A DNA stretch of 37,168 nt from a bacterium. GTDB taxonomy: Bacteria > Patescibacteriota > Patescibacteriia > SG8-24. The notes below the pieces were generated by a model, which saw only the letters and a program-made list of their open reading frames with translations, was not told the origin of the DNA and made no database searches. Shown here in pieces: positions 2 to 37,145 of the stretch (positions are counted from its first letter, which is position 1; each line of letters opens with the position of its first letter). The stretch spans positions 1-37,168 of the forward strand of contig JAKAKZ010000008.1 in the NCBI GenBank assembly GCA_021824285.1. Direction: 5' to 3'. A program made the translations under genes and the position numbers.

Positions 2-379
2 ATCAATCTCAAGGGCAAGGACTGCGTGGTCGGCATGGACGTGGTCGATCCGGAGCTCGCCAAGAAGGGCCGGTTCGACCTGCTCGTGGTCATGGAGAAC
101 GGCTTCGGCAAGCGCACCAACATGACCGCCTACAAGACCCAGGGCCGGGGCGGCTCGGGTATCCGCACCGCGCACATTACCGAGAAGACGGGCGAAGCCG
201 TGCTCGGCATGATCATCAACGCCAAGGAGGAGCGCGACCTGCTCGTAGTCTCGCAGAAGGGCCAGATCATCCGCCTGCCGATCTCGAGCGTCAGCACGCT
301 CGGCCGCGACACGCAGGGCGTGCGCATCATGCGGTTCAAAGAGGATAAGGACGGCATCGCGAGCGTGACGGTGGTTTAG
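2..379 (+). CDS. gyrA: DNA gyrase subunit A, C-terminal end (5' truncated by window)
   Basis: Frame opens at base 2; GyrA C-terminal beta-pinwheel type repeats (DLLVVSQKGQIIRLPISSVSTLGRDTQGVRIMRF). Confidence 0.9.
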   Translation: MNLKGKDCVVGMDVVDPELAKKGRFDLLVVMENGFGKRTNMTAYKTQGRGGSGIRTAHITEKTGEAVLGMIINAKEERDLLVVSQKGQIIRLPISSVSTLGRDTQGVRIMRFKEDKDGIASVTVV

Positions 380-610
380 TGAAAATCTGACAGATGAAGA
401 CGGCTGCCGTTGATAACGGCGGCCGTTCTGTCTAAGCCGTCGGCGGGCGGTCTGCCAGCTCCGACCTGTTCGACGGCGGCCGCTCTCTGACTTGGCTGAA
501 TTACCGCCGTCTCACGCGGTCGTCGCCGACAGCCGCCCGCCGACTCATGCCACGCTCACGACGGGTGGGGATGGGACTGCTGTGAGTAGAAGATCCGTTT
601 CGTCTCCGCA
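350..610 (+). repeat. Copy 1 of diverged tandem duplication beginning inside the gyrA 3' end
   Basis: 350-375 gacggcatcgcgagcgtgacggtggt is identical to 664-689; diverged similarity continues through cacgcggtc and gactgctgt..gtagaag to about 610. Confidence 0.8.
439..544 (+). ncRNA. Candidate structured RNA, copy 1
   Basis: Outer stem GTCGGCGGGCGG (439-450)/CCGCCCGCCGAC (533-544), GACC/GGTC closing pair, inner stem GACGGCGG (472-479)/CCGCCGTC (504-511), loop motif CTTGGCTGAAT. Confidence 0.5.
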
Positions 611-663
611 GGGTCCTGTCGTCCGGTGTGAATTTTCTCTCATATCAGTTTTTTGGCATCTTT

Positions 664-928
664 GACGGCATCGCGAGCGTGACGGTGGTGTAGTCGGAAT
701 TCAGATATAAAAAGACCGGTTGCCGTTCATTGCGACAGCCGGTTTGTTCTTGCGCCGGCGGCAGGCTGCCTCCGCTGACCTGTTCAGTGCCGGCCCGTAT
801 TTATCTTGGTTGAATCGCCAGCACTTCACGCGGTCAGCGGAGTCAGTCTTCCGCCGGCCTGGTTCCCCGCTCACGATGGGTGGTGAGGGGGACTGCTGTA
901 GGTAGAAGTGCCGCTTCGGCTCCGCCGC
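664..928 (+). repeat. Copy 2 of the diverged tandem duplication, including a copied gyrA 3' tail and stop
   Basis: Aligns to 350-610 at an offset of about 314 nt. Confidence 0.8.
754..858 (+). ncRNA. Candidate structured RNA, copy 2
   Basis: 27-nt imperfect outer stem (754-780 with 832-858, 23/27 paired), inner stem AGTGCCGGC (786-794)/GCCAGCACT (817-825), loop motif CTTGGTTGAAT. Confidence 0.5.
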
Positions 929-1014
929 AACGTTATCTCTAGGCATGATTACGCAAGCGAATCACCACCGCGCCTTCCGCCGCCTCGCGCCCAATGTTAT
1001 ACTTTTCCCAAGCT

Positions 1015-8761: not shown

Positions 8762-8942
8762 CAAGCCACCTGGCTTGTTTTTTATAAATTCACTTATTTT
8801 AGCTGTTTTTTCGGCCCGGACTTGCCTTTCGTATTTGGCGCTTCTGCGGCCGTCCGTTTCGGTCTTTACTAATCTGTGCCAACATGCTATAACTTCTCCA
8901 CCGTTCGCGCCCAAATTAAAACAAAATAAGCATCGATCACAT

Positions 8943-8963
8943 GGGTCGGTAGCTCAGCTGGTA
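8943..8963 (+). pseudogene. 5' fragment of a duplicated tRNA-Lys (acceptor 5' strand and D-arm)
   Basis: gggtcggtagctcagctggta identical to 9204-9224; resumes at 9162-9172 (gagcaagcgcc); upstream leader also duplicated. Confidence 0.8.
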
Positions 8964-9161: not shown

Positions 9162-9203
9162 GAGCAAGCGCCCGAATTAAAACAAAATAAGCATCGATCA
9201 CAC

Positions 9204-9279
9204 GGGTCGGTAGCTCAGCTGGTAGAGCAAGCGCCTCTTAAGCGTTTGGTCCTGGGTTCGATCCCCAGCCGACCCACCA
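9204..9279 (+). tRNA. tRNA-Lys (CTT), CCA encoded
   Basis: Acceptor gggtcgg/ccgaccc, anticodon arm agcgc-ctcttaa-gcgtt, T-arm tgggttcgatcccca, ACCA 3' end. Confidence 0.95.
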
Positions 9280-13024: not shown

Positions 13025-13102
13025 CCGCCTTTCCCCGCGGTCCGGTATCGCAAAAGATGCCGGCCAGCGGGGACAGAGGGTCATCAATCTGTCCCGGACG
13101 TT

Positions 13103-13540
13103 ATGCCTCTTAGCGCCACGGCCGGAACCCTTCCGGCCGGAGCACAACCGAAGATCCTGATCGTCGAGGACGACAGGTTTCTGATCAAGATCCTGCTGGC
13201 TAAGTTCCAGAAGGAGGGTTTTGAGACGCGCGCCGCGCTGGAGGGCGAGGCGGCGTTGCGCGAACTGGAGAGCTTCTCGCCCTCCGTGATTCTGCTTGAC
13301 ATCATCATGCCGAAACTCAACGGTTTTGAGCTCCTGGCCATCCTGAAAGCCAATCCGAAGTACGCCGACATTCCGGTCGTCGTGCTCTCCAACCTCAGCC
13401 AGGAGGAGGATACGCGGCGCGCCAAAGACCTCGGGGCCGCTGACTTTTTCGTGAAAGCCGACGTTTCCATCAATGAAGTCGCCTCCCGTGTCCGGGAGGT
13501 CATCGCCAAGCAGCTGGCCAAGCGTCCGCATCGGTCATGA
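13103..13540 (+). CDS. Single-domain response regulator (receiver only)
   Basis: ILIVEDDRFLIKIL...VILLDIIMPKLNGFELL...FFVKADVS; 4-nt ATGA overlap with pilB. Confidence 0.9.
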   Translation: MPLSATAGTLPAGAQPKILIVEDDRFLIKILLAKFQKEGFETRAALEGEAALRELESFSPSVILLDIIMPKLNGFELLAILKANPKYADIPVVVLSNLSQEEDTRRAKDLGAADFFVKADVSINEVASRVREVIAKQLAKRPHRS

Positions 13541-17212: not shown

Positions 17213-20200
17213 ATGCGTACGCAGCCAGTCATCCGCCATCTCACGCCGCGCAAGGCCTTCTCGCTCATTGAGGCCATCATTGCGATCGGCGTCTTTGCGG
17301 TACTGGCTGCCGGCATTTTCTCCCTGGTGCTTTTCCCGCTGACGGCTTCCGGCGTCGCCCAGGAGCGGGCTCGCGCCTCCTTTTTGGCCGAAGAGGGCCT
17401 GGAAGCGGCGCGCAGCATCCGCAACGAAGCATGGCTCAATGTGGCGACGCCAGGGACTTTCGGATTGGCCAAAACGGTCAAGTGGTCCTTTACCGGCACT
17501 TCGGACCAGACCGTTGACGGGCCGCTCGTCTACACCCGCGCCGTGGTCCTGAATCAGGTGTTCCGCGACGGCTCCGGCAATATCGTCCTGTCCGGCGGTA
17601 CGGTCGACCGCCGCACCGTCTCCGCCACCGTGACGGTCAATTGGCTGTCCGCCACCGGCCAGGCGAGGTCGGTGAGCGCCGTGACCTACCTGACCAACTG
17701 GAATTCCTTCGACTGGAAGCAGGATACGGACGTGGATTTCAACGGCGGCACCAAGTCCGGCACGGCCGTGAACGGTACCGGCACTGCCGGCCAGGTGATC
17801 CTGGCTTCCGGCGCTATGGTCAAGAACTGGACCTTGAGTTCCGGCGGGCTCATCCGCCACACGACAGACGTGGATTTCAACGCGGGTACGTTCGATAATA
17901 CGCAAGTTTCCGGCGTCGGAGCGTCAGCCGACGTGATTGCCATCGGCACTCCGAAATGGATAAGCATCGCCCAAGGGCGTCAGTTCCTGGACATGACGGA
18001 CGCGGATTTCGCACTAGGCACCAAGACGAATACGGTCGTCGTCGGCACCGGCACGCCAGCCACCGTGCGCCTGGATTCGTCAACGCAATGGTCGGCTTTG
18101 CCGTCGCCGCATACCAAGGATGTCATGGGCATCTCCATGTTGAGTTCCACGGAAGGCTGGTCGGTGGCGCTCGCCGGCAATATCGCCCGCTGGAACGGCA
18201 CGGCCTGGTCGTCTTTTGCCTCGCCGACGGCGCAGGATCTTTATGCCATCAAGATGCTGACTGCGAGCGACGGCTGGACAGTCGGCAAGTCCGGCAACAT
18301 CTTCCGCTGGAACGGCACGGCCTGGTCCGCGGTCACGAGCCCGGTCAGCCAGAACCTCAATGCCATCGCTTCCGTGGCCTCAAACAACGTCTGGGCCGCT
18401 GGCGCGAGCGGCAAGATTCTCCGCTGGAACGGCACGGCCTGGTCGCAGTTCGTCGATACGGGCAACCAGACCTGGGCCGGCATCGCCCTGCCCTCGGCGA
18501 CTCTCGGCTTCGTGGTCGGTAACGGCGGCGCCATCTACCGGTATAACGGCACGGCCTGGGCGACCATCGCTTCCGGCACGACCGCCAATTTGAGCGCGGT
18601 GTCCTGCGCGTCTACCACTCTGTGTTTTGCGGTCGGCGCCGGAGGGGTCATCCGGCAGTGGAACGGCACTTCCTGGGGCGCCGCGACTTCGCCGACGGCC
18701 AATACCCTGAACGCGATACACATGATCTCCACCACCGAGGGCATGGCAGTGGGCATAACCGGCACCATCATCCGCTGGAACGGCGCCAACTGGTCGTCCA
18801 TGACGACTCCGGGCGGCATCCCGATGTATGCGATTGCGGAAATTTCCGCCAACGAGGCGCATGCCGGCGGAGCCGGCGGGGTCTTCTGGCGTTACGGCAG
18901 CGCCTATTTCGCCAGCGGCACCTATGTTTCGGCCGTGTTCGATGCCGGCGCTGCCGCGGCCTGGGGACACGTCTTTTGGAGCGAGGTCACCACGGCCAAT
19001 ACGACCGTGACCATCGCGACCCGTTCCGGCAATACGTCGACGCCGGACGGCACCTGGTCCGGCTGGAGCGGCGAGCTGATCGATCCCACCGGTTCGATAA
19101 TCGGTTCCGGTTCGGCCCGTTACATCCAGTATCGCGCCACTCTTTCCACGACTACCGGCACCGAGACGCCGATTCTCGACGATCTGCTTATAACGTACGA
19201 CGAACCAGGCGCGACAGCGCTGTATGAGGTCGTGGTGACGGCCGCGAATGACGGCTGGATGGTCGGCTCCGGTGGCTCCCTGGTCCGATTCGACGGCACC
19301 TCGTGGGCCAACTACCCGTCGTCACCGACGACGAACAACCTGCTTAGCGTCGATGCGGCCGGTGCCAACAACGTCTGGGCCGTCGGCGCCAAAGGCACGG
19401 TCATCAAGTGGAACGGCGCTTCTTGGGTCACGCAGACTTCGGGCGTGACCGCGGACCTCAATGACGTGAGCGCGGTCAGCGCCTCCTCGGCTTTCGCCGT
19501 CGGCGCTAAGGGCACCATCATCCGCTGGAACGGCACGGCATGGTCCGCGTTGGCCTCCGGCGTGACGCAGGCCCTGAACGCGGTCGACATGCTTTCGGCC
19601 ACGGACGGCTTCGCCGTGGGCAACAACGGCATCATTCTCCGCTGGAACGGCACGGCCTGGTCGGCGGTCACCTCGCCGACTAACTCCGGACTGAACGGCG
19701 TGGCCATGCTCTCCACCACGGACGCCTACGCCGTCGGCGGCGGCGGCGTCATCCTGCATTGGAACGGCACGGCCTGGAGCGCGATGGTCTCCGGCACGCC
19801 GAACGACCTGCGCGACATCTATTGCACGGGCGCGACCGACTGCTGGGCGGTCGGCATCCAGGAGACTTTCATGCATTGGGACGGCACTACCTGGTCCCAG
19901 TATGTGTTCAGCAATCCGTCCAACCCGATCATGTCCGGCGTCTTCCTTTCGGCGCCAGGCGACGGTTGGTCGGTCAGCGAGAACGGCTCCATTTATCATT
20001 ATTTGAGTTCGTTCGTTTCCCCTTCGCATTACACCAGCCCGGCGCTCGACAGCGGCACTACCGATGCGGTCTGGAACCTTGCCGCCTGGGATGCCACCTT
20101 GCCTTTCGCCACGAACCTTACGGTCAGCACTAGGACCGGCAATACGCCGACGCCGGACATCACTTGGTCGGCCTGGAGCGCGGAGCTGATCGATGCCGGC

Positions 20201-21418
20201 GGCAGCACGGTGGCTTCGCCGACCGGCCGTTATCTTCAGTATCGTCTTACCTATACCACCACGAACGTGGCGGCCATGCCGACGTTCAGCGAGATGCGGC
20301 TGATCTACGGTGCGGTCACGGGCCAGAACCTGTTCGCCGTCGACGGTACGGCCACGAGCGATGTTTGGGCTGTGGGCCGGTCGGGGACTATCGTCCATCT
20401 GGGAACCGGCAGCTGGGGTGTCGTGCCGGCCGGCACTTCCGTTGACCTGTCCGGCGTCAGTGCCGTCAGTGCGGCCTCGGCCTTCGCCGTCGGCGTCGCC
20501 GGCACGATTACCCGCTGGAACGGCTCGACTTGGGCGACGATGACTTCGCCGACCGGCAACGATCTGTACGCCGTTTCCCTTTCGGCGACCGCAGACGGGT
20601 TTGCCGTCGGTCTCGGGGGCGTCATCATCCGGTGGAACGGTTCGCTGTGGTCCACCGTAACTTCGCCGACGGGTAATGCCCTATATGGCGTAGACGCCTA
20701 CAGCCCGTCCTCGGCCTTCGCCGTGGGCGCCGGCGGCACCATCGTCCGCTGGAACGGCTCGACCTGGGCGACGATGACTTCGCCGACTTCCTCCATTCTG
20801 CGCTCCGTACACCAGTATTCGGCCACGTTGGCCATGGCGGTCGGTGACGGCGGCACCATCGTCCGCTGGAACGGCACGGCCTGGTCAACCATGACCTCGC
20901 CCGTGACCTCCAACTTGCGGTCCGTGGACATCCGCAGCCCGACCGAGGCCTGGGCGGTCGGCGACTACGGCGTCATCCTGCATTACGACGGGACGACTTG
21001 GGCGACGTTCGCTTCCGGCACCACGCTGACGCTCTACGGCCTGACCGTCTCCGCGCCGACCGACGGCTGGATCTGCGGACAGAACGGCATCCTGATCAAG
21101 GATCCGCCGCCCTACAACCTGAACGGCACCTTCACGTCGTCCGTGTTGGATACGGATGTCGGAACTTCCTACTGGGATGTCGGTTACTTTTCCTCGAACC
21201 TGCCGGCATCTACCTCATTGGGCGTGCGGTTCCGTTCCGGCGATGTTCCCACGCCGGACGGCACCTGGTCGGCCTGGACCGGCGTCGTCACGACCGGCAG
21301 CGGTTTCCTGATTGCCGCGCCGCCCGCCCGGTACCTGCAGTACGAGGCCGATTTGGGCACGCTCGACAACAACGTCACGCCCAGCCTGGACGACATCACC
21401 GTGACCTACCAGAGGTGA
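17213..21418 (+). CDS. Giant pseudopilin with three YCF48/BNR-like beta-propeller blocks
   Basis: KA^FSLIEAIIAIGVFAVLAAGI leader; ~20 repeats of about 39 aa (xIxRWNGTAWSxxxSPTxxxLxAVxxxSxxxxFAVGxxG) in three blocks alternating with three copies of a ~95-aa spacer domain. Confidence 0.92.
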   Translation: MRTQPVIRHLTPRKAFSLIEAIIAIGVFAVLAAGIFSLVLFPLTASGVAQERARASFLAEEGLEAARSIRNEAWLNVATPGTFGLAKTVKWSFTGTSDQTVDGPLVYTRAVVLNQVFRDGSGNIVLSGGTVDRRTVSATVTVNWLSATGQARSVSAVTYLTNWNSFDWKQDTDVDFNGGTKSGTAVNGTGTAGQVILASGAMVKNWTLSSGGLIRHTTDVDFNAGTFDNTQVSGVGASADVIAIGTPKWISIAQGRQFLDMTDADFALGTKTNTVVVGTGTPATVRLDSSTQWSALPSPHTKDVMGISMLSSTEGWSVALAGNIARWNGTAWSSFASPTAQDLYAIKMLTASDGWTVGKSGNIFRWNGTAWSAVTSPVSQNLNAIASVASNNVWAAGASGKILRWNGTAWSQFVDTGNQTWAGIALPSATLGFVVGNGGAIYRYNGTAWATIASGTTANLSAVSCASTTLCFAVGAGGVIRQWNGTSWGAATSPTANTLNAIHMISTTEGMAVGITGTIIRWNGANWSSMTTPGGIPMYAIAEISANEAHAGGAGGVFWRYGSAYFASGTYVSAVFDAGAAAAWGHVFWSEVTTANTTVTIATRSGNTSTPDGTWSGWSGELIDPTGSIIGSGSARYIQYRATLSTTTGTETPILDDLLITYDEPGATALYEVVVTAANDGWMVGSGGSLVRFDGTSWANYPSSPTTNNLLSVDAAGANNVWAVGAKGTVIKWNGASWVTQTSGVTADLNDVSAVSASSAFAVGAKGTIIRWNGTAWSALASGVTQALNAVDMLSATDGFAVGNNGIILRWNGTAWSAVTSPTNSGLNGVAMLSTTDAYAVGGGGVILHWNGTAWSAMVSGTPNDLRDIYCTGATDCWAVGIQETFMHWDGTTWSQYVFSNPSNPIMSGVFLSAPGDGWSVSENGSIYHYLSSFVSPSHYTSPALDSGTTDAVWNLAAWDATLPFATNLTVSTRTGNTPTPDITWSAWSAELIDAGGSTVASPTGRYLQYRLTYTTTNVAAMPTFSEMRLIYGAVTGQNLFAVDGTATSDVWAVGRSGTIVHLGTGSWGVVPAGTSVDLSGVSAVSAASAFAVGVAGTITRWNGSTWATMTSPTGNDLYAVSLSATADGFAVGLGGVIIRWNGSLWSTVTSPTGNALYGVDAYSPSSAFAVGAGGTIVRWNGSTWATMTSPTSSILRSVHQYSATLAMAVGDGGTIVRWNGTAWSTMTSPVTSNLRSVDIRSPTEAWAVGDYGVILHYDGTTWATFASGTTLTLYGLTVSAPTDGWICGQNGILIKDPPPYNLNGTFTSSVLDTDVGTSYWDVGYFSSNLPASTSLGVRFRSGDVPTPDGTWSAWTGVVTTGSGFLIAAPPARYLQYEADLGTLDNNVTPSLDDITVTYQR

Positions 21419-27716: not shown

Positions 27717-27844
<128 letters not shown>

Positions 27845-36407: not shown

Positions 36408-36529
<122 letters not shown>

Positions 36530-37042: not shown

Positions 37043-37145
<103 letters not shown>

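Follow-up and report, generated by a model that had tools for sequence, protein, structure and literature searches.

Tandem gene-less inserts with a conserved hairpin core behind gyrA, and a third behind rplL, as candidate mobile elements in one bacterial genome

Introduction

The described systems closest to the locus reported here are integrated elements that enter bacterial or archaeal genomes at the ends of housekeeping genes. Streptococcal ICEs with tyrosine integrases insert precisely at the 3' terminus of rplL and are flanked by direct repeats 12–54 bp long (PMC4701971); at rplL such elements accrete in tandem, and a single integrase family covers both guaA and rplL (PMC5357655). Casposons generate target duplications of up to 27 nt (PMC4046053), often at the 3' ends of elongation-factor genes, and tandem insertions are known (PMC6563490).

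We describe here a set of inserts, two of them in the window (the whole 37,168-nucleotide stretch of DNA that was analysed), which resemble each of these systems in part. With the streptococcal ICEs and IMEs and their decayed forms at the 3' ends of rplL, rpsI, rpmG and guaA, they have in common exact entry at a gene end, repeats of that gene end, and tandem accretion (PMC4701971, PMC5357655); however, the streptococcal elements run to approximately 10–41 kb and carry integrase and transfer genes, whereas the inserts at this locus carry a conserved hairpin in place of any gene and measure less than 300 bp. The thaumarchaeal integrated elements and casposons offer parallels in the replacement of a stop codon by the element's own (as in NitEve-E2), the use of ef-2 3' ends, long target duplications, and tandem insertion (PMC6563490, PMC4046053), but the genome studied here has no Cas1, and its inserts are far smaller and have no terminal inverted repeats. 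Bacterial MITE-like elements such as the Rickettsia palindromic elements, Correia and RUP are likewise small, non-coding, foldable as RNA and bounded by direct repeats at their ends (PMC2229807). Those reviewed are mostly shorter than 200 bp and have terminal inverted repeats; the present inserts are short, gene-less and flanked by 26-bp repeats of the target, but they lack such inverted repeats, number only three copies, and sit at precise gene ends. Finally, the long imperfect hairpin with invariant loops is reminiscent of the structured RNAs collected in Rfam 15, from which it differs in matching none of them at gathering score.

Results

Anatomy of the inserts behind gyrA and rplL

The gyrA gene ends at position 379 of the window, and two hairpins then follow. 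A 26-base stretch at the 3' end of gyrA, reaching to the second position of the final codon (350–375, plus strand; placed by gyrA homology and reading frame across 10 family genomes), recurs exactly at 664–689, an offset of 314, so that the pair form attL-like and attR-like flanks. Directly after the left repeat, the insert completes the final codon with a third base of its own (T in place of G, Val either way) and adds a TAG stop (376–379, plus strand), followed by a terminator-like hairpin with a weak T run at the left end of insert 1 (400–433, plus strand), the first hairpin core (439–544), and a tail (545–663) in which GCTGTGAGTAGAAG at 579–592 represents the motif TGTRRGTARAMG. The right repeat is the displaced gyrA end, lying on the plus strand and no longer translated within gyrA; it leads into the displaced last base and TAG stop (690–693, plus strand) and then into the next terminator and insert 2, which comprises a second terminator-like hairpin with a T run on the minus side too (713–746), the second core (754–858), and a tail (859–925) with GCTGTAGGTAGAAG at 895–908. 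A right-hand repeat of insert 2 was not found, the best later match being 12/26. The two gyrA terminators are homologous to each other (z 7.1), as are the two tails (z 14.9). The inserts themselves differ by approximately 30% while the right-hand gyrA repeat is identical at 26/26 positions, and thus either the insertion is recent or the repeat has been kept.

The same arrangement, with a single hairpin, is present behind rplL, where 26 bp of the gene's 3' end are repeated exactly (L009 2648–2673 and 2956–2981, offset 308). At both genes the repeats run as far as the second position of the final codon, one base short of the stop codon. The left repeat leads into a synonymous third base, a TAG stop, and then a terminator-like hairpin; the right repeat leads into the displaced final base, the former stop codon, and a further terminator. 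In the case of rplL, the insert carries A-TAG and the displaced end reads G-TAA, as in most relatives. The fully bounded inserts, 282–288 bp long, thus lie between exact 26-bp gene-end repeats. They contain no genes and show no ORF likeness; an 81-aa minus-strand ORF in copy 2 (701–946) was set aside, as it has no counterpart in copies 1 and 3. The resemblance between the gyrA and rplL inserts is slight once the core is disregarded and hardly extends past the TGTRRGTARAMG motif, so homology does not define the ends of the element. Comparison of the two different 26-mers with the inserts gave no significant likeness, comparison of insert ends gave no significant match of the terminal inverted repeat kind, and guide-like complementarity between insert and target did not rise above that of shuffles. 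An assembly artefact is unlikely because both loci have their expected neighbours.

When 86% of the genome was scanned, stretch by stretch, for exact direct repeats of at least 16 bp ending at a stop codon, this anatomy appeared at gyrA and rplL only. Tolerating mismatches adds gyrB, whose 3' end recurs over 24 bp at an offset of 141 (L082, G000:C34, left repeat 1100–1123), after which GAT-ATC-TAA stands against GAC-ATT-TGA, both reading Asp-Ile-stop. The 110-bp gyrB insert has no clear protein family and is without the hairpin core, and gene-end repeats may therefore extend beyond the hairpin inserts in this genome. The remaining matches of the mismatch-tolerant scan, judged by eye, were repeated genes, tRNA clusters, spurious frames, and low-complexity tracts.

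Empty sites in relatives

The arrangement without an insert exists in relatives. In 9/9 other members of the family, which represent other genera rather than strains, rplL has neither the core nor the repeat. Most of these genes end in AAG or AAA and then TAA, and in several a terminator leads directly to the next gene, matching the displaced right-hand end in the present genome (CAAG-TAA, terminator); the right-hand end here thus looks native, and the left-hand end appears to have come with the insert. As to gyrA, its stop codon and terminator in relative G004 are followed, with no insert, by a gene homologous to the one that comes next in the window (33% identity, E 3e-52). The hairpin is missing behind both genes in relatives. 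In the genome G007 (L040, L113, L157–L176), a palindromic repeat occurs behind both gyrA and rplL and is 75% alike over 279 bp; it is unrelated to the core and so abundant in a 400-kb sample that its presence behind those two genes means little.

The hairpin core

The first-pass annotation had described two copies on one fold plan behind gyrA, and refolding bears out both the coordinates and the fold: positions 380–640 fold at −128.5 kcal/mol (z −5.2) and positions 694–940 at −117.9 kcal/mol (z −5.5), with no shuffle equally stable in either case. The two gyrA cores are diverged, with approximately 71% identity. Searching the whole genome (1.33 Mb, 75 contigs) by BLAST with copy 1 returned copy 2 and a third core 3' of rplL (G000:C21:2727–2835; BLAST E 5.6e-15, 76%; covariance model E 7.7e-20), and a covariance model built from the three copies identified no fourth in the genome. 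All three cores contain the invariant blocks GACCTGTTC, TTGGYTGAA, and TCACGCGGTC, and TGTRRGTARAMG is kept in every copy; the strings gctcacgaygggtgg and gactgctgt, previously noted as conserved further 3', are indeed common to the two gyrA copies but confined to them.

In the consensus helix of the three copies, 88.8% of cells are paired. On the plus strand, 10/33 pairs are altered on both sides and yet still pair (shuffle mean 3.9, with 0/500 shuffles reaching 10), and on the minus strand 8/36 (shuffle mean 3.0); counted over three copies in one genome, such two-sided changes are far above shuffled or slid controls. That pairing persists through sequence change, as proposed from the two gyrA copies, accordingly holds for all three, with 8–10 stem pairs altered on both sides. 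Pair-keeping changes of this kind mark the hairpin as maintained. As evidence for an RNA they are suggestive, drawn as they are from three copies in one genome, and they fall short of proof because the same signal is expected of a DNA palindrome.

For each of the three cores, the minus-strand fold is more stable than the plus-strand fold (−76.1 versus −61.3, −66.8 versus −66.2, and −68.0 versus −61.9 kcal/mol), and the same holds for the consensus (−54.4 versus −42.4). Several one-sided changes are of the G-C to G-U kind when read on the minus strand, on which the invariant parts become GACCGCGUGA, UUCARCCAA, and GAACAGGUC. If the hairpin acts as an RNA, the minus strand is thus more likely to be the transcribed sense, and the transcript should run towards gyrA; a simple scan detected no promoter-like site. 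The stabler minus-strand fold had escaped the earlier reading from sequence alone, as had the 26-bp gyrA-end repeat and the rplL copy. Its "structured RNA after gyrA" is therefore a real structure but an incomplete description, since the same core occurs 3' of rplL, inside an insert flanked by 26-bp repeats, and is missing in relatives. The alternative it had raised, decayed mobile palindromes, comes nearer, although the inserts are not simply decayed, with two of the three keeping intact flanking repeats.

Searches for homologues and enzymes

In agreement with the initial failure to recognise an RNA family, no Rfam 15 family matched at its gathering score; the best sub-threshold matches were miRNA precursors at 19–22 bits, against gathering scores of 70–197. 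The hope of further homologues in related genomes was disappointed, with covariance-model searches of 286 class and 380 phylum genomes (overlapping samples) placing the core in this genome only. Two weak class matches had many broken pairs, and a third (G206/L017) lay at the start of another apparent coding frame; all three were discounted. The core likewise had no match in phages or plasmids. An exact-pattern scan of a collection of genome contigs gave 7 matches, and one of viral contigs gave 0, then 12 with a looser pattern; none of these combined a paired inner stem with the loops, and all were taken as chance. With no copy outside this genome, we infer mobility from the repeats. There is no integrase in or beside the inserts, the genome's only match to the phage-integrase family being Xer-like, and both Cas1 and reverse transcriptase are absent from the genome.

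Discussion

We consider it somewhat probable that the hairpins are the cores of two tandem, gene-less integrated mobile elements, with a third at rplL, which entered by site-specific recombination of the tyrosine-integrase type, helped by an enzyme acting in trans. Recombination would take place between the 26 bases that end the gene and a like site on the element, through an enzyme presumably encoded by an element absent from the assembly, and entry would replace the last codon base, stop codon, and terminator with the element's own, which would leave the protein unchanged. A second entry at the same gyrA site would then yield the tandem. The hairpin itself might be a cis-acting structure of the element, acting either as RNA read from the minus strand or as single-stranded DNA in folded form, and serving replication, transfer, or recombination. 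We favour integrase-type entry on the combination of gene-end repeats, a host gene restored by an element-borne end, empty sites in relatives, and the tandem arrangement, for which the streptococcal elements provide precedent. Since the element encodes no integrase, we do not file it as an ICE or IME, but only as one that may work like them with help. Against this reading speak the lack of an integrase in or beside the inserts, the missing right-hand repeat of insert 2, the slight likeness of the gyrA and rplL inserts beyond the core, and the coreless insert at gyrB; one recombinase would also need to accept two different 26-mers.

In a transposon-like alternative, an integrase would cut the two strands of the gene end 26 bases apart, and gap filling would then create a 26-bp target-site duplication, as casposon Cas1 can. 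The equal repeat length at two unrelated targets keeps this alternative alive, since it fits a fixed stagger better than a shared attachment sequence, and casposons are known to make duplications of 1–27 nt (PMC4046053) and to insert in tandem in ef-2 (PMC6563490). We nonetheless regard this as unlikely, given the lack of Cas1, of reverse transcriptase, and of significant terminal inverted repeats, and given that the gyrB repeat is 24 rather than 26 bp long and has a different end point relative to the stop.

Local tandem duplication would instead have doubled the gyrA end, terminator, and hairpin in place, with later divergence, making the hairpin an old 3' feature of the gene. The homology of the gyrA terminators and of the tails is what such a history predicts, but a non-coding gyrA end would hardly be preserved at 26/26 beside cores so diverged; moreover, a single hairpin accompanies the same anatomy at rplL, and the hairpin is missing behind both genes in relatives, all of which makes this origin improbable. 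Still more doubtful is a homing-endonuclease remnant, that is, an endonuclease gene beside a gene-end copy, spread by break repair and later stripped of its ORF. Small GIY-YIG genes do lie between partial and complete tRNA-Asp and tRNA-Ser copies in this genome, but the tRNA inserts have no significant sequence in common with the core, the inserts under study bear no ORF likeness, and their identical repeats show no recoding of the target to resist cleavage. Least probable of all is a cellular non-coding RNA carried along by chance, acting on gyrA and rplL, for example, from the 3'-UTR or as an antisense regulator. The invariant loops, the pair-keeping changes, and the one-sided minus-strand changes of the G-U type might suggest such an RNA, but it sits poorly with Rfam matches far below threshold, the lack of a promoter-like site, and the absence of conservation in the family.

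Returning to integrase-type entry, we tentatively suggest that the inserts could represent a minimal class of gene-less integrating element, composed of the hairpin and a "gene-end cap" (last codon base, stop, and terminator) that would insert without harm at the final codon of essential genes, leaving a 26-bp repeat and relying on a recombinase acting in trans. If so, they would rank with the smallest integrated elements observed at the ends of housekeeping genes, in a lineage of small genomes with little-known mobile DNA, where a parasite would sit in gyrA and rplL at no protein cost. Genome size and relatives suggest that this lineage may lie within the candidate phyla radiation. More generally, tandem structured-RNA candidates with pair-keeping changes may turn out to be the cores of mobile inserts; a cheap way to test such candidates is to check whether the end of the adjacent gene is repeated.

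Other repeats in the genome

Several further repeats came to light in passing. In the window, the region upstream of tRNA-Lys together with its first 21 bases is repeated at an offset of 261 (8914–8963 and 9175–9224), and the extra tRNA-Lys copy is broken in its D-loop by a palindromic insert (GGTA|AGCCGCC...GGCGTA|GAGC); inserts of like make-up occur at tRNA-Ala (L097, near 13087–13345) and tRNA-Thr (L050/L122). The small GIY-YIG endonuclease genes between partial and complete tRNA-Asp and tRNA-Ser copies (30-bp and 71-bp repeats) are at L121 (G000:C58:6628–6828) and L123 (G000:C54:26445–26651). Long (TC)n tracts lie at approximately 27786–27837, 36463–36526, and 37095–37144 of the window, two of them being near copies of a longer repeat at an offset of 632, and at approximately 3114–3160 of L009 behind rplL. 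A 1401-aa ORF at 17213–21418 of the window is internally repetitive, with spacings that are multiples of 117 bp (39 aa).
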